From the NCBI GenBank assembly GCA_036659455.1, contig JAVXCN010000002.1:1-64000 (forward strand): a DNA stretch of 64,000 nucleotides, given 5' to 3'. The notes under the pieces were generated by a model. That model did not search any database. It saw only the letters and a list, made by a program, of their open reading frames with translations, and was not told where the DNA came from. The stretch comes from Victivallaceae bacterium. Its GTDB lineage: Bacteria > Chlamydiota > Chlamydiia > Chlamydiales > Chlamydiaceae. Shown piece after piece: positions 3,149 to 51,452 of this stretch (the first letter of the stretch is position 1; each line of letters starts with the position of its first letter). The position numbers and the translations under genes were made by a program.

Positions 3149-4363
3149 CTAATTATTTAAAGTAACCGACGAATCTTTTTGTAAAACGGCAATATTTTCT
3201 AGGTGAGGAGAATAGGGGAATTGATCAATCGGTTGCATAGCCGTTATTCGATAACCGGCATCAACGAGTTCTCGACAATCGGCAAACTGTGTTTTGGGAT
3301 TGCAGGACACATAAATGATTTTGGGAGCGTCGAATCTTAAAAGATATTTGATAATTTTAGATTGCAGTCCTGAACGCGGCGGATCCAAAATTAGGACATC
3401 CGGCTTCAGAGACGATCCTCTTATAAATGACTTAACATCGTTTTGTTCTACCGTCATTGATTCAATACGATTGATAACGAGATTCATATTCGCCGAACAT
3501 ACGGCATCTTTGTTGAGCTCAACTCCTATGACTTGTTTGACGAAAGGAGCGAGCATTATTCCTATAGTGCCTGAACCGCAAAAAAGGTCAAAAAGAACCT
3601 GATCTTTACGTAGTTCGGCTAATGTTAAAATAGTTTTGAAGAGATTGGAAAATTGTAAATTATTCGGTTGAAAAAAAGCATCGGGTTTTACGACGAACTT
3701 ATGTTTAATTGAAGTTTCAGGAAGATCGACATCGATGATGATGTAATCTTTCCCGTAGAGACACGATTGAATATAGCTCGTAGGGACGCCTTTGCGCGCG
3801 TATTTCTTTCTCCAAATAAAAGATGTTAAAGGCGCTCCGTTTTTTAAATCTTCAACAAGCGAAAGTATCGTTTTTTCATTCAAAGTATACTGAGGGTTTC
3901 CCGATGTAGTTAAGATGACCATGAGTTCTTGGGTTGAAGGAGATTTTCTTACGGTCAAAGAGCATAAGGAGCCTTTATTTTTCGGAGCATAATAAGATCG
4001 AATTTTAGGGTTTTGATCCCACCAGTTTCTGGTTATTTGGAGACATCTGATGATTGCCCTATCAGCCAGAAGACAGCTATCGATATTCAAAGTACGTTTC
4101 GGTTGGCCCAAAGATAATAGACCGAGATACCTTTCGCCGGACAGGGTGTCCGAAAATGAAAACTCCATTTTATTTCTAAAGTTTTTCGGTTGACTACAAG
4201 GGATAAGGGGGTGAACGTTACTATTTGCTTCTAAGAGATTGGAAAAAAGACTTAAGAGATCCTTTTCTTTCCTATCGATACCGTCTTTAAAATAGGTGTC
4301 ATGAGGATAAGAACATCCTCCGCAGCTCCCGTAATAAGGACAGACGATTGTTCGATCGTCCAT
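3149..4363 (-). CDS. rumA: RNA 5-methyluridine methyltransferase (RumA/RlmD-TrmA family)
   Basis: This SAM-dependent enzyme methylates C5 of a uridine in 23S rRNA or tRNA; which one cannot be read from the sequence. An N-terminal iron-sulfur site is visible (C8, C14, C17 in CPYYGSCGGC, with a fourth cysteine near residue 98). The SAM site is LFDLFCGSGTIG and the nucleophile motif is SCNP near the C-terminus. The length of 404 residues is normal, although the TRAM domain common in RlmD is absent. The foreign element begins 69 bp upstream of its start codon, so its promoter may now lie within or next to the insertion. Confidence 0.9.
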   Translation of the reverse strand: MDDRTIVCPYYGSCGGCSYPHDTYFKDGIDRKEKDLLSLFSNLLEANSNVHPLIPCSQPKNFRNKMEFSFSDTLSGERYLGLLSLGQPKRTLNIDSCLLADRAIIRCLQITRNWWDQNPKIRSYYAPKNKGSLCSLTVRKSPSTQELMVILTTSGNPQYTLNEKTILSLVEDLKNGAPLTSFIWRKKYARKGVPTSYIQSCLYGKDYIIIDVDLPETSIKHKFVVKPDAFFQPNNLQFSNLFKTILTLAELRKDQVLFDLFCGSGTIGIMLAPFVKQVIGVELNKDAVCSANMNLVINRIESMTVEQNDVKSFIRGSSLKPDVLILDPPRSGLQSKIIKYLLRFDAPKIIYVSCNPKTQFADCRELVDAGYRITAMQPIDQFPYSPHLENIAVLQKDSSVTLNN

Positions 4364-4423: not shown

Positions 4424-4431
4424 GAAAAAAA
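4424..4431. repeat. Probable target-site duplication, left copy (gaaaaaaa)
   Basis: The 8-mer gaaaaaaa directly precedes the left inverted repeat and recurs directly after the right one at 6645-6652. Eight base pairs is the usual duplication size for IS1595-family elements. The sequence is low in complexity, so chance is possible, but the exact adjacency on both sides supports it. Confidence 0.65.
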
Positions 4432-4456
4432 TGGACTTATATAAAAAGTTACCCTA
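4432..4456 (+). repeat. Left terminal inverted repeat of the element
   Basis: Positions 4433-4456 (starting ggacttatata and ending agttaccctá without accent: agttaccct then a) match the reverse complement of 6620-6643 at 23 of 24 positions. Including 4432/6644 gives 25 positions with two mismatches. The outer end reads tggac on the left and gggac on the right. Confidence 0.88.
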
Positions 4457-4534
4457 GATAAATAAAAAATGCGAGTTCATTATGTTTTATAATTAGCACT
4501 TAACTACCTTAAAATGATCCTATATAAGGGGGGT

Positions 4535-5255
4535 ATGGAAACACAGTGCCAATCACTCATTGATTTTCTTGCCTTCTTTAAGGATGAAGAAACTTGCATT
4601 AAACACTTTGAAGCATCTCGTTTTTGCAATGGTGAATACTGCGCTCACTGCGGGCATACCAGCATTTACCGCATGAAAGGCGGTCGTTTTCGTTGTGCTA
4701 AATGCAAACAGGATTTTACTATCAAAACCAATACTATCTTTGGCGAAAGTAAGTTGACCCTTCGTAAATGGTTTGTGGCTATCTACCTGTTAACCATCAG
4801 CACTAAGGGTATTTCTTCCATCCAGCTTGCAAAGCATGTTGGTGTTACGCAGAAAACAGCGTGGTTTATGGATCATCGTATTCGCCAAGCCATGCAGCAG
4901 GGCAATAACCAGCTTTTCGGCACGGTAGAAGTGGATGAAACCTATATCGGCGTAAAGAAAATAAACATGCCAGGCAAACGCATTGAAGGAACGCAAGGGC
5001 GCATTACCAAAGCTAAAACTGCTATTGTAGGGTTGGTACAGCGTGGCGGTGAAGCCCGTGCAAACGTGGTAGAGAATGTCACAATGTGTACTATTGAAAA
5101 AAAATATCGTGGAGCATGTGCAGATAGGTACGCAGCTTTATACTGATGATTTCCGTTCCTATAATAAAATAGGCTCGCTTTATCCACATGACAGGGTAGA
5201 ACATGGTCGTGGGGAATACGTCAAAATCAGAATTCTTGACCTTATAAAACACTAA
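4535..5255 (+). pseudogene. IS1595-family transposase, frameshifted and truncated
   Basis: The start at 4535 follows a ggggggt ribosome-binding site. Residues 36-57 form a zinc ribbon (CAHC...CAKC), then a helix-turn-helix-like region, then VEVDETYIG with the first catalytic Asp. The frame closes at 5146. A shift at the A8 run 5097-5104 opens a second frame to 5255 that contains YTDDFRSY, the expected second catalytic Asp, and HDRVEHGRGEYV. After that the protein ends in unrelated KIRILDLIKH. The C-terminal part with the third catalytic residue (Glu or Asn) is missing. Slippage at A8 could restore the second Asp but not the lost end. The gene is therefore probably inactive. Confidence 0.85.
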
Positions 5256-5265
5256 CGAGGGCAGC

Positions 5266-6147
5266 ATGAGCCGGAAGCCAAAAAACCATGACCACCTACC
5301 CCTCCCCTTTGAACAGGTAATAACGGGTATTTCCGATGAGCAAAAGCCTGAAACATTGCTGCTTGCTGCACGTCCGTTTCTGAAATGGGTTGGAGGCAAG
5401 CGTTCCTTACTTCCGCAACTGGAGGCAAGGCTACCACTGGAATACACCACCTACCACGAACCTTTTATTGGTGGCGGAGCGTTGTTTTTTGAAGTGCAGC
5501 CCCGCAAGGCTTGCCTCACAGATATTAACTTCCACCTTGTTCTCACCTTTCAAGCGGTGCGTGATGAGGTGGACGCGCTCATTAAGCAGCTTAAAATTCA
5601 TGGGCAACACCATGATAAAGACTATTTCCTGAAGGCACGGGATAGCTTGTTCGGTGAAAAAGAGTTTGTAAAAATTGCTGCATTATTCATATACCTGAAT
5701 AAAACATGCTATAATGGGCTTTACCGTGTCAATAAGAGTGGAAAGTTTAATGTGCCTATGGGTAGCTATAAAGACCCGGCTATTCTGGATGAGGATAACC
5801 TCCGCAATGCCTCCAAGTTGTTGCAGGGAATTGATATACAGCAACGTCCGTTTACCCAAACCCCGATTGTTAAGGGTGATTTTTACTATCTTGACCCGCC
5901 GTACCATAAGACGTATGACGGGTATAGTGGGCAGGGTTTCGCAGATGCAGAGCATGAAAAGTTAGCACAGTTGTGCCATGATATAAACAAGTCCGGCGGT
6001 TATTTCATGCTTTCCAACTCCGATACTGAATTTGTAAGAAAACTTTATAAAATCTATAGCATTGAAGATGTTATGGCATCCCGTATGGTATCGTGCAAAT
6101 CCAATCAACGGGGCAAAGAGAATGAGCTCATCATCAGAAACTACTAA
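5266..6147 (+). CDS. dam: D12-class DNA adenine methyltransferase (Dam/DpnM type)
   Basis: This enzyme transfers a methyl group from SAM to N6 of adenine in DNA and here probably protects DNA from the nuclease encoded next to it. The 293-residue protein shows the family motifs in order: WVGGK (41-45), EPFIGGG (65-71), NKTCYNGLYRVN near 145-156, and catalytic DPPY (210-213). The start follows gaggg, 10 bp beyond the transposase remnant, and the nuclease start overlaps its 3' end by 26 bp, a tight two-gene unit. Relatives often recognise GATC, but the target here is not shown by the sequence. The reading frame is intact, and codon choice differs from the chlamydial neighbours, pointing to transfer. 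Confidence 0.92.
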   Translation: MSRKPKNHDHLPLPFEQVITGISDEQKPETLLLAARPFLKWVGGKRSLLPQLEARLPLEYTTYHEPFIGGGALFFEVQPRKACLTDINFHLVLTFQAVRDEVDALIKQLKIHGQHHDKDYFLKARDSLFGEKEFVKIAALFIYLNKTCYNGLYRVNKSGKFNVPMGSYKDPAILDEDNLRNASKLLQGIDIQQRPFTQTPIVKGDFYYLDPPYHKTYDGYSGQGFADAEHEKLAQLCHDINKSGGYFMLSNSDTEFVRKLYKIYSIEDVMASRMVSCKSNQRGKENELIIRNY

Positions 6148-6622
6148 TAGCGGTGGCAAGGCTAACCATACGGGAAACCAGTTGGAACGCTTTGTAGAGC
6201 AAGCCCTGCAATCCCATAGCTACACAGAATTCTGGAATCACAAAGCCCAAGCCTTTGATAACCGGAAATCCATAGGAGGAAAGCAATATCTAAAGCAACT
6301 TCCTTGTGGACGCACCATTTATCAGACGGTGCGAAAGGTGGATTTCCTTGTTATCAACCGCGCTAAATTTCCTGACGATCTCATTATAGAGTGCAAGTGG
6401 CAGCAGTCTAAAGGCTCTGTGGATGAGAAATACCCATTTCTGCTTTATAACATCATCAACACTGGCATTCCTACGGTAATTTTATTGGATGGTGAAGGTT
6501 ACTCCGCAGCAGCAAAAAAGTGGCTGACAGATCAAGCCGACAAGGAAATGAACCTCAGCTTCTGGGGCTTATGGACAATGACTGAATTTCAAAAGAACAT
6601 TAACAACGGGTTTTTGGGTTAG
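6122..6622 (+). CDS. PD-(D/E)XK family endonuclease, putative type II restriction enzyme
   Basis: A 166-residue protein whose core fits a PD-(D/E)XK nuclease: D74 in KVDFLVI, then E90-C-K92 in LIIECKWQ with a following glutamine (Q94). Such residues bind the catalytic metal. The ATG at 6122 lies inside the end of the methyltransferase gene, which indicates translational coupling. The frame also opens 20 codons earlier at a TTG inside the methyltransferase gene, but the ATG is the better start. The TAG stop is the first three bases of the right inverted repeat. Restriction function is inferred from the active-site motif and the methyltransferase partner; a nickase or homing-type role cannot be excluded. 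It appears intact. Confidence 0.75.
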   Translation: MSSSSETTNSGGKANHTGNQLERFVEQALQSHSYTEFWNHKAQAFDNRKSIGGKQYLKQLPCGRTIYQTVRKVDFLVINRAKFPDDLIIECKWQQSKGSVDEKYPFLLYNIINTGIPTVILLDGEGYSAAAKKWLTDQADKEMNLSFWGLWTMTEFQKNINNGFLG

Positions 6623-6644
6623 GGTAACTTTGTATATAAGTCCC
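6620..6644 (-). repeat. Right terminal inverted repeat of the element
   Basis: It begins tagggtaacttt and ends ataagtccc, complementary to the left end with one internal mismatch (6632 g) and one at the outermost base. It overlaps the stop codon of the nuclease gene. Confidence 0.88.
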
Positions 6645-6652
6645 GAAAAAAA
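6645..6652. repeat. Probable target-site duplication, right copy (gaaaaaaa)
   Basis: Second copy of the 8-mer at 4424-4431, directly outside the right inverted repeat. It belongs to the A-tract that, read on the minus strand, is the T-tract of the hctA terminator. Confidence 0.65.
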
Positions 6653-6689
6653 TAAAAGCCCGTCTTAATTAAAAACGGGCTCTTTTTAA
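6646..6689 (-). terminator. Rho-independent terminator of hctA (both strands possible)
   Basis: A 7-bp stem, agcccgt (6657-6663) with acgggct (6675-6681), is followed on the minus strand by ttttattttttt and on the plus strand by cttttt. It lies 18 bp beyond the hctA stop. The element inserted into its minus-strand T-tract but left the stem whole. Confidence 0.85.
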
Positions 6690-6698
6690 AGATATGAC

Positions 6699-7064
6699 TT
6701 ACTTTCTTTTAGATTTGATGGGTTTGGAAGGTTTGACAGTGTATTTTTTAGCCGGTAATTTTTTAGAGTTTTTACTGCAAGAAGCTTTTGAATGGTGTGC
6801 ACTCATTTTTTTTCCGCAACAAACTTTTTTCGAGGTTGGGGTTTTCTTATCCATTTTTTTGATTTTTGCGGCTTTCTTTAAGGAGCCGGATTTTTCCGAT
6901 TTAATGGATTCTTTTCTATAAATTTTAGCCGTTTTTTCAAATTTTATAGATAAGGTACGGACCCGTTGAGAAGCGGCTTTATTGCCTGTTTCTGCTTTTG
7001 CTAAGTCCTTTTGTAAGGAATCCAGCAAGTGTTTCATTAATTTAAAAGTGTCTTTAAGAGCCAT
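6699..7064 (-). CDS. hctA: Histone H1-like DNA-condensing protein Hc1
   Basis: Hc1 compacts the chromosome when reticulate bodies turn into elementary bodies. The 121-residue product starts MALKDTFKLMKHLLDS and has the conserved N-terminal helical half, including AKAETGNKAASQRVRT. A lysine-rich C-terminal tail follows. Several cysteines and histidines in the tail (CCGKKMSAHH, CSK) are notable against the Lys/Ala/Pro tails I recall for other Hc1 proteins. A gaggaag ribosome-binding site sits 7 nt before the ATG. Its own terminator lies downstream, where the restriction-modification element has landed. Confidence 0.93.
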   Translation of the reverse strand: MALKDTFKLMKHLLDSLQKDLAKAETGNKAASQRVRTLSIKFEKTAKIYRKESIKSEKSGSLKKAAKIKKMDKKTPTSKKVCCGKKMSAHHSKASCSKNSKKLPAKKYTVKPSKPIKSKRK

Positions 7065-8117: not shown

Positions 8118-9431
8118 TTATGGCTTTAAAAAGGAATCAGACACGATTCCGTTTTCGACTAATTCATAAGCATTGGAAATGCAAGTATTGACTCCCGGAC
8201 CGGTAACATCTTGACCCGAAATAATCAATTGACTCGGAAGTTCTTGGGTTGTCCGAGATAAAAGCGACATAAATCCAGGCAGTCTTTGAGGGATCCCGTG
8301 TTTCGATTTCGACACTGACACGACTTGAGGTTCTAATGAAATTTTCAAGTAATCAGAGAGAGATTTAGAGCCTTCTTCTTGCCCTTTTGTTCCTGACATT
8401 AACACTGATATTTGGGTCTTCCCTTTGTTTTTATCCGGAAATATATCGGAGTTCCATAGAAAACCTAATGTATCCGAAGAATCTTTAACCAGCATTCCGT
8501 AACCTCTTCGCTTAAGAAGAGGAATCTTTGACCATCCAAAAGAGGCACAAGTCAATCGGTTTTCAACAATATGTTCGGCCAAACGGTTAATTAAAGGAAT
8601 TTGCGGTTGCAGCAAGGGTTGCAGTTGCGATAAAGGAACGCAACTGATAAGGAGATTAGCAGTAACGGTTTCTTCTGGGGAGTGAATGGAAACCGTTTGG
8701 TCGGGGTTAAAGGATATATGAGAGGTATGAAATAAAGTTTTCAGATTTGCGGACATTTTCTGAGATAAAGTGTCTGTGAGAATATTCATCCCGTCTTTTA
8801 AGGAAAATAAACTAGGGGTCCCCGTTTTTTTTTGCATGGATTTCCAGTTGCAAAGGTTACACAAGGCTCCTTTAATGAGAGAACCGTAATGATTTTCCCA
8901 ATTTTTTAGGGTAGGAAACGTTGCCTGGGAAGAAAGTAAATCGATATCTCCTGCTTTTACGGCAGTGATGACAGGTGAAAGAATGGTCTGAACGAATGTT
9001 TGCGAACAATGTCTGTATAAAAATTCTTTTAAAGTTTCGTCTTTCGAATCATGCTTTTTACAACGAAGATCTTTGATTAAAGAAGAAAATAATCCCATTT
9101 TGGATAGTAAGAAAAGATTAAAGGGATATGTTTTTCCTTGATAATGAAGGTATCGTTTGCGTGCCGTCGGTTCGGAAGGAAGCAATTGTCGATTTATATC
9201 CAGATCGTTGATGAGTTTTAGAGTTTTTTCTCCTTTTCCTTTAACGAGAAATGCATTAGGTCCTGATTCCAGGACAAAATTATCGATATATTCAGTACGG
9301 ATCATTCCTCCGGCTCGCGACGATTTTTCTAAAATCGTAATTTGCACATGATTTTCGTATTTTTTCTTTAAAAGCCATGCTGTAGTCAAGCCGGATATCC
9401 CCGCTCCTAAAATAACGATTTTTTTTATCAT
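8118..9431 (-). CDS. hemG: Protoporphyrinogen oxidase, HemY-type
   Basis: This FAD enzyme oxidises protoporphyrinogen IX to protoporphyrin IX, the second-last step of heme synthesis. The 437-residue protein opens with the dinucleotide-binding motif GAGISGLT (residues 9-16), continues with the GGMIRTE segment typical of this oxidase, and ends with GQDVTGPGVNTCISNAYE, the FAD-binding C-terminal block. Sequence type is HemY (oxygen-dependent, amine-oxidase fold), although chlamydial genomes label it hemG. It is last in a hemE-hemN-hemG set, with its ATG overlapping the hemN stop by 4 bp. Confidence 0.92.
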   Translation of the reverse strand: MIKKIVILGAGISGLTTAWLLKKKYENHVQITILEKSSRAGGMIRTEYIDNFVLESGPNAFLVKGKGEKTLKLINDLDINRQLLPSEPTARKRYLHYQGKTYPFNLFLLSKMGLFSSLIKDLRCKKHDSKDETLKEFLYRHCSQTFVQTILSPVITAVKAGDIDLLSSQATFPTLKNWENHYGSLIKGALCNLCNWKSMQKKTGTPSLFSLKDGMNILTDTLSQKMSANLKTLFHTSHISFNPDQTVSIHSPEETVTANLLISCVPLSQLQPLLQPQIPLINRLAEHIVENRLTCASFGWSKIPLLKRRGYGMLVKDSSDTLGFLWNSDIFPDKNKGKTQISVLMSGTKGQEEGSKSLSDYLKISLEPQVVSVSKSKHGIPQRLPGFMSLLSRTTQELPSQLIISGQDVTGPGVNTCISNAYELVENGIVSDSFLKP

Positions 9432-47836: not shown

Positions 47837-48958
47837 ATGTTCAATCAAATTCTTAATCTCGGAAAATTGAGGGGGTCCGTGTCGCCTCTTCCTGGAAATC
47901 CCAAAGGGGTGGATTTTCGTTCGAATGATATTTTAGGATTAGCGAATTCGCAGGAATTATATGATAAGATTACCGACCGTTATGGTGTTCTTTCGGGAAT
48001 ATACGGACCGACTCAAGGAGCATCCGGTTCTCGTATCAATTCCAAAAACGCGGAATTTTTGAATATTCTGGAAGATAAAATCGCTCATATTCATGGATAT
48101 CCAACCTCTCTGATTTGTCATTGCGGTTATATGGCCAATCAATCTCTATGTTTTCTATCCGTTTCCGAAAAAGATGTTTTGTTATTTGATGAAGACGTTC
48201 ATATCTCCCTAAAGTCCGGAGTTCTTTTCGGTAAGGGGAAGCACGGTTTTTTTAGTCATAACGATTTAGGGCATTTGGAAGAACAACTCATAAAATTTCG
48301 ACCCGATGGAAGGAATATTTTTATAGGTGTGAGTTCGGTATATTCACAAGACGGCAGTTTGGCACCTCTTGAGGAATTGATTGCGCTGTCACAAAAATAT
48401 GATGCCAAATTAATTGTGGATGAAGCCCACGCCATAGGTGTTTTCGGTAATGGTTTGGGCTTTACTCAGAATTTATGCGACAAGATTTTCGGAGTGGTAG
48501 TAACTTTTGGAAAAGCCTTAGGTACTTTCGGAGCGGCCGTTTTGGGTGGTGCAGAGCTGAAGGAATATTTGATTCATTTTTCTTATCCCTCTAGATTCTC
48601 CACTGCTTTCCCTTTATATAATCTTGTGGCTGTCGATTGTGCTTATGATTTGATGCTACAAGCGGATCGTCAACGTGATTATCTACTCGTATTACGGAGA
48701 CATTTTTTAGATCTTTTCGCTTTTTCAAGTCCCGGTATTCTTCAGTCGTTAAATATGGGGACTATCGATACTGCTATCGCTTTTGTTAATTTTTGTTTTG
48801 AGCGAGGTTTTTTGGTAAACCCAGTCGCTTCCCCTCAAGTTTTTTCGAAACAGGGTCGAGTTAGAGTGACATTGCATGCGTTTAACACCAAGGATGAAAT
48901 AGACAAGCTTCATAAATTGTATGACGAATTTTTAAAAAAAATCCTCAGACAAATGTAG
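47837..48958 (+). CDS. bioF: 8-amino-7-oxononanoate synthase-like PLP enzyme
   Basis: A 373-residue alpha-oxoamine synthase, PLP-dependent, that joins an amino acid to an acyl thioester. The PLP lysine is in TFGKALGTFGAAV, with LIVDEAHAIGVFG as the cofactor-binding Asp/His segment. BioF of the biotin route is the usual label, but no other biotin gene is nearby, and the lipid genes upstream make another acyl substrate possible. An in-frame GTG lies one codon before the ATG. The end overlaps priA by 14 bp. Confidence 0.85.
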   Translation: MFNQILNLGKLRGSVSPLPGNPKGVDFRSNDILGLANSQELYDKITDRYGVLSGIYGPTQGASGSRINSKNAEFLNILEDKIAHIHGYPTSLICHCGYMANQSLCFLSVSEKDVLLFDEDVHISLKSGVLFGKGKHGFFSHNDLGHLEEQLIKFRPDGRNIFIGVSSVYSQDGSLAPLEELIALSQKYDAKLIVDEAHAIGVFGNGLGFTQNLCDKIFGVVVTFGKALGTFGAAVLGGAELKEYLIHFSYPSRFSTAFPLYNLVAVDCAYDLMLQADRQRDYLLVLRRHFLDLFAFSSPGILQSLNMGTIDTAIAFVNFCFERGFLVNPVASPQVFSKQGRVRVTLHAFNTKDEIDKLHKLYDEFLKKILRQM

Positions 48959-51452
48959 TAATGGGATCTACGTCGATAAAAAATTTTATTTTTGTGCAAG
49001 GCTTGCACTCTATCATAGCGTTTTGAATGGCTCGGTTTGTGGTCATAATGTTACGGGTTTTAATCAGAAATTGATAACGGAATAAATCTTTGATTTTAAT
49101 ATGACCGCAAGGAATAGTCGGATGAACTATAGTCTCTTCTCCTCTACAAGCTAAAGCAACACTGCGACGTGTTTTTTCCGCTTCTCTACGAGTTAATTCG
49201 GCATCTTTACCCATAAAAACGAATTTAATTAAGCGAAAAAAGGGAGGAAAATTGAAGCAACGGCGATTTTCCAATTCTTCATTGTAAAATTTTAAATAAT
49301 TTCTTTCTGAAGCTAAAGCCATTGTTTTATTCGCGGGACTAAAGGTTTGTATTAAGACTTCTCCAGGCAATGAACTTCTTCCGGCTCGACCTCCCACCTG
49401 TGTGATAACTTGAAAGACATATTCGGAGGCTCTGAAATCCGGAATGTGCAAACCCGAATCCCCATTTAATATGACGGATAAAGTAACGGAAGGGAAATGA
49501 AGACCTTTGGCAATCATTTGAGTTCCTATGAGGACGTCAGCTTTCCCGGTAGCAAAACGTTTAAACGTCTCATCGTAACTGTTTCTTTGACGTATAGTAT
49601 CGGAATCAATACGGATAGTACGAATATTCGGAAATATCGCATGAAGAGCTCTTTCGACTTTTTCAGTTCCTACACCAGTATAACTGAGTTTCACTTCTCC
49701 TTTACACGTGCCGCAAAATTTCGGAGGAGGCGTTAGTAAGTAACCGCATAAATGACAGGTTAACTCGTTGGTTATTTTATGAAAGGTTAACGTAATATCA
49801 CAATGTTCGCATTTTAAAACCGTGTCACATTCTCTACAGGATACTTGTGTATAATAACCTCTTCGGTTACAAAAGATAATACTCTGTTCTCCTTTTTCGA
49901 TTCTTTCTTGAATTCCGTTAAGGACGGTAGATGAGAGAAGAGCAGAGGAAGGATTTTTCGGTAATTCCTGTTTCATATCGATCAGAGAAACAATACTTGA
50001 GTCTTGCGTTTCTGCTTGCCGGTTGAGAACGGAAAGATGGTATTTCCCTGTCTTGGCGTTCATAAAAGTCTCTAAGCTTGGAGTTGCGCTTCCTAAGACA
50101 ACGGTAGCTCCCATTATTTTCCCTCGCATAACTGCGGTATCTCTAGCGTGGTAACACGGAGTCATTTCCTGTTGTTTGTAAGCCATGTCGTGTTCTTCGT
50201 CTACTATGATTAATCCGAGATTTTGCATGGGACAGAATAAAGCTGAACGGGGCCCCATGATAATATCAAGTTTACCTTTGAGAGCATTGCACCAGGTCTT
50301 ATTTTTATCTTCATCACTTAATTTATGATGAAGAACTCCTATTGATGTTCCAAAGCGAGCTTTAAATTGTTCAACCATATGAACTGTCAAAGCGATTTCG
50401 GGAACTAGGATGATAGTACTTTTATGTAATTTTTTAGCATGTTCTATAGCTTGAAGATAAATTTCCGTTTTTCCGCTTCCGGTAACTCCAAAGACAAGAT
50501 GAGTTTCAAAAATGTTATTTTCAAGAGAAGCACGAATTTTCGCTAAGGAATGAATTTGTTCAGGATTTAATTCTTTGGGACAAATCGGTAAAAATTCAAG
50601 GTTTTGAAAAAAAGGATCCGGGTGATTTGTTTCCGTAATGCGTATGAAATTTTTTCTCTCTAAAGCTACTAAAGAAGTTTTGACTGTTCCGGATCTTTTA
50701 AGAACTTCAGTTGAGGAAAGACAAGGTTTATCGTTTTCTAAAAGTACTGTTAAAATTTTTTCCTGACTGCCTACTTTAGGTTTATTGCTGGCTATCAGTG
50801 TTAGAATTTCTTGTTTATCTTTAATTAGTTGAATTGTTTCCTGAGGTCGACAATTACAAGGATCCGGGTGATTTGTTTTCGTAATGCGTATGAAATTTTT
50901 TTTCTCTAAAGCTACTAAAGAAGTTTTGACTGTTCCGGATCTTTTAAGAACTTCAGTTGAGGAAAGACAAGGTTTATCGTTTTCTAAAAGTACTGTTAAA
51001 ATTTTTTCCTGACTGCCTACTTTAGGTTTATTGCTGGCTATCAGTGTTAGAATTTCTTGTTTATCTTTAATTAGTTGAATTGTTTCCTGAGGTCGACAAT
51101 TACCCGGTTCTCTTACGGATCCCGGGAGAAACAACTTTAAAATTTGTCCGAGCGGAGCAAAATAATAACGGCTGATCCATAAAGCCAATTCAATGAGATC
51201 GGAGGTGAGAACGATGTTGTTTTCAATGGTTTCCGTAATCGGTAGAATTTTTGATAAACATTGGGAAGTAGGCTTAAGCGATACTACAATTCCGGCTTTT
51301 TTTTTGTTTCTTAGAGGAACGTTTACGCAAGATCCTTCTTTAATGGAATCTGCAAGCTCTCGAGGTATTCCGTAGTCAAGAGTTTGGTTAATAAGAGCGT
51401 TAACGATTACTTCGGCGTAACCGACATAGTTAGTTGTCGTAACTGTATCCAT
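48945..51452 (-). CDS. priA: Primosomal replication restart helicase PriA with internal duplication
   Basis: PriA reloads the replisome at stalled forks. Order: N-terminal DNA-binding domain, winged-helix region, helicase with Walker A GVTGSGKTEIY and DEEHD box, then the zinc-binding insert with paired CxxC motifs (CRECD, CEHCD, CHLCG, CGTCKG). It has 835 residues, exactly 82 more than the 753 I recall for C. trachomatis PriA. The excess is explained by a tandem duplication of residues about 117-198 in the winged-helix region (246 bp, two base differences). The frame stays open. The start overlaps the upstream gene by 46 bp. Confidence 0.93.
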   Translation of the reverse strand: MDTVTTTNYVGYAEVIVNALINQTLDYGIPRELADSIKEGSCVNVPLRNKKKAGIVVSLKPTSQCLSKILPITETIENNIVLTSDLIELALWISRYYFAPLGQILKLFLPGSVREPGNCRPQETIQLIKDKQEILTLIASNKPKVGSQEKILTVLLENDKPCLSSTEVLKRSGTVKTSLVALEKKNFIRITKTNHPDPCNCRPQETIQLIKDKQEILTLIASNKPKVGSQEKILTVLLENDKPCLSSTEVLKRSGTVKTSLVALERKNFIRITETNHPDPFFQNLEFLPICPKELNPEQIHSLAKIRASLENNIFETHLVFGVTGSGKTEIYLQAIEHAKKLHKSTIILVPEIALTVHMVEQFKARFGTSIGVLHHKLSDEDKNKTWCNALKGKLDIIMGPRSALFCPMQNLGLIIVDEEHDMAYKQQEMTPCYHARDTAVMRGKIMGATVVLGSATPSLETFMNAKTGKYHLSVLNRQAETQDSSIVSLIDMKQELPKNPSSALLSSTVLNGIQERIEKGEQSIIFCNRRGYYTQVSCRECDTVLKCEHCDITLTFHKITNELTCHLCGYLLTPPPKFCGTCKGEVKLSYTGVGTEKVERALHAIFPNIRTIRIDSDTIRQRNSYDETFKRFATGKADVLIGTQMIAKGLHFPSVTLSVILNGDSGLHIPDFRASEYVFQVITQVGGRAGRSSLPGEVLIQTFSPANKTMALASERNYLKFYNEELENRRCFNFPPFFRLIKFVFMGKDAELTRREAEKTRRSVALACRGEETIVHPTIPCGHIKIKDLFRYQFLIKTRNIMTTNRAIQNAMIECKPCTKIKFFIDVDPITTFV
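50612..51103. repeat. In-frame 246-bp tandem duplication inside priA
   Basis: Copy one covers 50612-50857 and copy two 50858-51103. Only two differences were seen by eye: c or t in gtttccgtaatg versus gttttcgtaatg, and c or t in the following ttttttctctct tract. The unit is 82 codons long, so the frame is kept. Near-identity points to a recent event, or an assembly artefact. Confidence 0.93.

Follow-up and report, generated by a model that had tools for sequence, protein, structure and literature searches.

The interval between a rumA-type gene and hctA in this chlamydial genome very probably holds an inserted unit transposon of the IS1595 family that carries a compact type II restriction-modification (R-M) cargo and whose transposase has since decayed. 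By descent, the element is a non-autonomous member of the IS1595 family, and in its workings it resembles a type II R-M system placed on a unit transposon. The vehicles usually described for R-M systems are plasmids, phages and flanking insertion sequences (ISs). A self-contained unit transposon of ~2.2–3.2 kb that is found in several phyla and whose R-M cargo is interchangeable provides a simple mechanism for the patchy distribution of R-M systems. All coordinates given without a locus name refer to the window, the 64,000-nucleotide stretch of DNA analysed here.

Anatomy of the element and its insertion site

The boundaries of the element were read directly from the sequence:

4424..4431, no strand: left copy of the 8-bp target duplication, GAAAAAAA
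4432-6644: whole element, 2,213 bp
4432..4456, + strand: left terminal inverted repeat (IRL), TGGACTTATATAAAAAGTTACCCTA; its first base is T, that of the family is G
6620..6644, − strand: right terminal inverted repeat (IRR), reverse complement GGGACTTATATACAAAGTTACCCTA
6645..6652, no strand: right copy of the target duplication, GAAAAAAA

IRL and IRR, each 25 nucleotides long, are identical at 23 of 25 positions (a repeat search returns 24 nucleotides at 96%). The inverted-repeat score of the two ends, 21 at best, lies above all of 300 Markov simulations (≤12), which bears out the near-perfect ~25-bp repeats that a preliminary description had placed at these positions. The identical 8-mer that it had noted on both flanks is likewise present, and the two copies of GAAAAAAA abut the element ends exactly. 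The probability of such a duplication arising by chance is ~3e-5 if only base composition is considered. Since this A-rich motif is found at 35 places in the window, stronger evidence for a target site duplication (TSD) comes from the relatives described below, which share the end base of the inverted repeat and carry exact 8-bp duplications of their own. Family termini start with GGG, and because the outermost left base has changed in this copy, the duplication aligns only when that base is counted. The element thus displays two traits of the IS1595 family, terminal inverted repeats at both ends and an 8-bp target duplication. Its GC content is 43.2%, compared to 37.9% in the remainder of the window.

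The element sits between two genes that are transcribed in the same direction:

3149..4363, − strand: RumA-type RNA (uracil-5-)-methyltransferase
6654..6684, − strand: intrinsic terminator hairpin of hctA, the T-tract of which is the insertion target
6699..7064, − strand: hctA (histone H1-like Hc1, PF07432)

The hctA terminator hairpin is strong (z −5.2), and since the right copy of the duplication retains the T-tract, termination of hctA was probably spared. The surrounding genes (nqrF-like, yajC, rumA, hctA, hemG, hemN, hemE, mfd and alaS) are chlamydial in content; hctA, the rumA-type gene and yajC were identified by tests, and hemG/N/E, mfd and alaS by reading of the open reading frames. 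The yajC-rumA-hctA adjacency was checked in other Chlamydiaceae genomes, and the remaining flanking genes follow the order known from Chlamydia. In 20 other Chlamydiaceae genomes, the orthologous hctA-rumA interval is 128–267 bp long and free of the element. The interval measures 2,335 bp here, and 114 bp once the element and one TSD are subtracted.

The host genome (1.08 Mb) stands alone in its genus within the comparison set, and the window contains hemE/hemN/hemG-like genes, whereas heme genes are reportedly missing in Clavichlamydia; an assignment to Clavichlamydia was rejected on these grounds. The genome is a draft in two contigs, and both the GC content of the element and its closest relatives are foreign, as they would be had contamination or misassembly put a foreign element into a chlamydial contig. 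However, the exact TSD lies inside a 219.7-kb contig that carries chlamydial genes on either side, and a chimera would not yield an 8-bp duplication at the exact termini of the family, which makes this explanation highly improbable. The presence of multiple copies in the same genome was considered and rejected, as a single copy was found; a control search with the reversed pattern gave no match in this genome. Elsewhere in the window, a PriA-like helicase encoded at 48945-51452 on the − strand contains an internal tandem duplication of ~80 residues, in which the block from CNCRPQETIQLIKDKQEILTLIASNKPKVGSQEK is repeated.

The transposase is broken

The transposase is spread over two reading frames:

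4535..5146, + strand: N-terminal and central part (zinc ribbon, region of the first catalytic Asp)
5100..5255, + strand: continuation in another frame (region of the second catalytic Asp)

Pfam and NCBIfam profiles match the IS1595 zinc ribbon and the DDE_Tnp_IS1595 domain across the two frames (PF12760, 1.2e-9; PF12762, 2.6e-9, above cut-off; NF033547, 4.7e-31). The frameshift falls in an A-rich run near 5094-5102, the first-frame match extending from 4535 to about 5098. The C-terminal third, which includes the HTN..E.FW motif and the third catalytic residue and is intact in relatives L003–L010 (below), is missing. The earlier identification of an IS1595-type transposase remnant is therefore sound. 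A search of the transposase for a complete catalytic triad found none, owing to the frameshift and the C-terminal loss; this weakens a claim of autonomy, but not that of IS1595 descent. A self-mobile element was rejected for this copy because its transposase is broken. The mobile R-M cassette proposed earlier is thus upheld as an element type by the inverted repeats, the TSD, the family matches, the synteny and the relatives, but the copy itself no longer moves on its own.

The cargo encodes an adenine methyltransferase and a PD-(D/E)XK nuclease

Downstream of the transposase are two intact genes, termed M and R:

5266..6147, + strand: M, Dam/DpnII-type N6-adenine DNA methyltransferase, intact (DPPY 210-213, NGLYR 150-154)
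5266..5364, + strand: M residues 1-33, the leader peptide; conserved within the transposon family, and a separate small ORF where the cargo is different
6122..6622, + strand: R, PD-(D/E)XK nuclease (PDDEXK_11), intact (invariant D74, E90, K92)

M matches MethyltransfD12 (2.5e-57) and the Dam family TIGR00571 (3.4e-81) and carries the DPPY and FxGGG motifs of D12-class adenine methyltransferases. Its closest solved protein is DpnM of the DpnII-type R-M system (PDB 2dpm), to which it aligns over 261 residues (E 7e-57), confirming the adenine methyltransferase reported earlier. The alignment begins at M residue 33, the N-terminal leader being extra relative to DpnM. M also retains NGLYR..NVP..Y, the GATC-reading elements of Dam enzymes. 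R differs from its DpnII-type counterpart in that it matches PDDEXK_11 (PF20472) at 1.3e-34, whereas its match to the DpnII family (PF04556, 8e-4) lies under the curated cut-off. The catalytic residues D74, E90 and K92 of R are unchanged in 12 sequences, in line with the PD-(D/E)XK nuclease predicted inside the element at the outset, and the catalytic residues of M are also conserved across relatives. R has no significant sequence match in the PDB. Its AlphaFold model is of moderate confidence (pLDDT 77) and gives weak matches in Foldseek (best E 0.05), several of them to PD-(D/E)XK proteins (McrC, MspJI, Hjc); a fold search of the PDB with this model returned no significant match. M and R overlap by 26 bp and R has its stop codon inside the right inverted repeat, so that the cargo extends to the very end of the element.

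We infer that the pair has R-M activity and that its specificity is for GATC. The observed-to-expected ratio of GATC in ~100 kb of host DNA is 0.82, similar to that of other palindromes; GATC avoidance was accordingly dropped as evidence of restriction, the under-representation being only mild.

Alternatively, the insertion may be real and the R-M pair inactive or unexpressed, with open frames that reflect a recent arrival. The transposase has already decayed, the GC content has not been ameliorated (43.2% vs 37.9%), and another Dam-family gene of this genome (C2:213249-213356) survives as a badly broken pseudogene, all of which fit such an inert fossil. Yet M and R are free of stops and keep the family-invariant residues while the transposase has accumulated two lesions, and we consider inertness unlikely.

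Relatives of the element are found in several phyla

Scanning of bacterial genomes with R identified eight loci that share the transposase-M-R order (about 56–70% identity) and near-identical termini:

L003, planctomycete: exact 8-bp TSD TTAAATTA
L004, Colwellbacteria: exact 8-bp TSD ATCTTTTT
L005, Uhrbacteria: no TSD
L006, uncultured bacterium: exact 8-bp TSD TGAAAGAA; left terminus decayed
L007, Moraniibacteriota: TSD 7/8
L008, Acidobacteria: exact 8-bp TSD TTTAGAAA
L009, Eremiobacterota: exact 8-bp TSD TAAAATTG
L010, Paceibacterota: exact 8-bp TSD TAAAATTA

The right terminus is common to all eight and each has a matching left terminus, that of L006 in decayed form; exact 8-bp duplications flank six of the eight. 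This architecture spans Planctomycetes, Acidobacteria, Patescibacteria and Eremiobacterota. Because architecture, termini and duplications are shared with these relatives, the locus described here represents the decayed copy, in a chlamydial host, of an IS1595-type R-M transposon that spans phyla. Two more distant loci, L014 (an alphaproteobacterium) and L016 (Rickettsiales), have GGTAATTA-type ends, and in both of them additional genes separate M from R; L016 has an exact target duplication. The protein encoded between M and R at 2709-3515 of L016 contains a NYN domain (PF01936, 1.6e-11).

Each relative genome contains one full copy of R, and within the Paceibacterota phylum set R is present in 2 of 380 genomes, making the element rare. 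Patchy occurrence and single copies fit horizontal spread. A search for the donor found none, the best identity of R being ~70%, in Acidobacteria and a planctomycete; in plasmid DNA, only short Acinetobacter Dam matches were obtained. In Mantel tests on the clade of nine, transposase distances agree with those of M (r 0.57, p 0.002) but not with those of R (r −0.07), and they therefore do not establish strict co-inheritance of R. Adjacent M and R genes also occur without this transposase, at cyanobacterial, Leptospirales and Rhodobiaceae loci.

Individual loci display features of their own. Around 2540-2581, the insertion flank of L009 resembles half a tRNA-Leu(UAA) gene, the 5′ part, with the break in the anticodon region; L009 also has an intact tRNA-Leu(taa) at 9209-9292, and Rfam shows no second tRNA or intron at 2540-2581. 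In an Acidobacteria genome, a derivative of the R-M element has undergone internal deletion and rearrangement and keeps its left inverted repeat intact (L088, G234:C363), and a contig carrying phage-like (terminase-like) genes contains an exact solo terminal repeat of this family with no transposase nearby (L145, 5925-5948). An accessory gene is found in four R-M elements (L006 2496-2897, L008 102-434 and L009 2599-2895, all on the − strand, and L155 7319-7573 on the + strand). Its product has repeats like ESQAGxGRHKCxxCAYxxG and no Pfam match, and is possibly a zinc-binding R-M accessory protein.

The cargo is exchanged and the leader peptide is retained

A terminal-repeat search of the Paceibacterota phylum set yielded L150 and L151, and contigs from IMG/VR, whose viral status is the label of that collection, provided further elements:

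L150: bounded by inverted repeats, exact duplication ACAATATT; DUF5343 protein, no M or R
L151: bounded by inverted repeats, exact duplication TTTTAATT; 170-aa unknown protein, no M or R
L136 (IMG/VR): same termini, transposase 63%; EcoRI-like nuclease (PF02963, 2.8e-13) and N6 methylase
L155 (IMG/VR), distant IS1595: Dam/PDDEXK_11 pair, exact duplication CTTATTTT
L156 and L157 (IMG/VR), distant IS1595: leader-bearing N6/N4 methylase and MvaI/BcnI-type nuclease
L159 (IMG/VR), distant IS1595: C5 methylase and unknown partner
L170 (IMG/VR), distant IS1595: 818-residue fused HsdR_N-N6_Mtase-S protein (type IIG-like)

The right terminus of L136 sits at the contig end, making its duplication unreadable, and no target duplications were found at L156, L159 and L170, the boundaries of which are therefore provisional. 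L150, L151 and L136 encode, after the transposase, a peptide of 45-51 residues with the pattern R..K.H.P....F...L..I; in the R-M elements, its counterpart by alignment is the stretch of ~33 residues at the start of M. By this alignment, the peptide is separate where the cargo is different and is a fused part of the methyltransferase in R-M elements.

The leader also occurs where M and R are missing from the element, so a portion of the cargo protein may work for the transposon. This observation, together with the lack of a characterised close homologue of R, raises the question of whether there is a restriction system at all: M could be a Dam-like enzyme with an epigenetic or replication function, and R could be a nuclease that serves some other purpose, e.g. 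to aid transposition. Nevertheless, the M-R adjacency is kept elsewhere without the transposase, which is what an independent R-M pair would show, and similar elements carry recognisable restriction endonucleases (EcoRI-like, MvaI/BcnI). We thus find such a role quite improbable and retain the R-M reading of the pair. A broader and more tentative possibility, which we rate as doubtful, is that IS1595-type transposons serve generally as vehicles and have repeatedly captured compact R-M systems (Dam/PDDEXK_11, EcoRI-like, MvaI/BcnI-like, C5, type IIG-like), with the transposon-encoded leader, separate or fused to the methyltransferase, coupling the methyltransferase to the transposase or to the transposon ends. 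If true, this coupling would build defence or addiction into the transposition cycle.

Proposed history of the locus and its relation to known systems

Judging from its anatomy, the locus very probably arose as follows. The hctA terminator would have provided the new site, in its AT-rich T-tract, to which the transposase linked the ~25-bp ends, with duplication of the 8 bp now found at both flanks. All three genes point the same way and overlap or adjoin one another, so that a single transcript probably encodes M and R, from which M would be made before R and the translation of the two would be coupled. M, which is very similar to DpnM, would methylate adenine, most likely in GATC, and R would cut the unmethylated site, the pair serving both in defence and as an addiction module, the loss of which would be costly. 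The transposase then decayed by the frameshift and the C-terminal loss, with M and R remaining open and keeping their catalytic residues. The outcome is an immobile resident R-M locus, presumably for a selective reason.

IS1595-family elements are characterised by an N-terminal zinc ribbon, the DDE_Tnp_IS1595 domain, terminal inverted repeats, an 8-bp TSD and passenger genes (PMC8101967), and tIS elements with passengers include tISSag10/MTnSag1 and tISCpe8 (PMC5704250), which agrees with the initial statement that such elements carry passengers and make 8-bp duplications. The element described here has the same domains, repeats, TSD and passenger organisation. It differs in that its passengers are a type II R-M pair, whereas those in the cited papers confer lincomycin resistance with conjugative mobilisation, and in that its leader is fused to the methyltransferase and its transposase is broken. 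Movement of R-M genes with the help of ISs is already known (PMC3031569, PMC4176335), and IS activity moves the R-M genes in both cases. However, the IS-linked or IS-flanked systems, as mentioned in PMC3031569 where it cites Furuta 2010, are composites or co-integrates in which the R-M genes lie next to separate ISs, whereas here the R-M genes lie between the element's own inverted repeats.

Our searches of the open-access literature turned up no account of R-M cargo on IS1595 unit transposons, of a leader fused in this way, or of an element of this kind in Chlamydiaceae. Methyltransferase passengers may be mentioned in the treatment of the IS1595 family by Siguier 2009. The element type is thus a widespread vehicle for R-M systems, and one that is apparently undescribed. 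Compared to the novelty first attributed to the locus, this is more, as the element type is cross-phylum, and also less, as IS1595 elements with passenger genes are an already known class.

The element is exceptional in Chlamydiota

The search of chlamydial genomes for R, suggested in the preliminary description, showed that the nuclease is absent from the 233 other Chlamydiota genomes. IS1595 domains occur in only six other Chlamydiota genomes, and both these domains and PF02086 are absent from the 21 other Chlamydiaceae genomes. According to a review, the C. suis Tet-island is the sole indication that Chlamydia has recently taken up foreign DNA (PMC10242142). The rarity of transposons and restriction systems in Chlamydiaceae, put forward initially, is thus supported. 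Chlamydiae are also reported to have very few R-M systems (PMC4176335). Given the reported rarity of both foreign DNA gain in Chlamydia and R-M systems in Chlamydiae, an insertion with an intact R-M pair represents a concrete case of acquisition. The second Dam-family methyltransferase of this genome, which extends from G000:C2:213249-213356 to about 213.6 kb (L065 1405-1817), has no recognisable inverted repeats and is badly degraded, with stops, an internal loss and a host-like composition.
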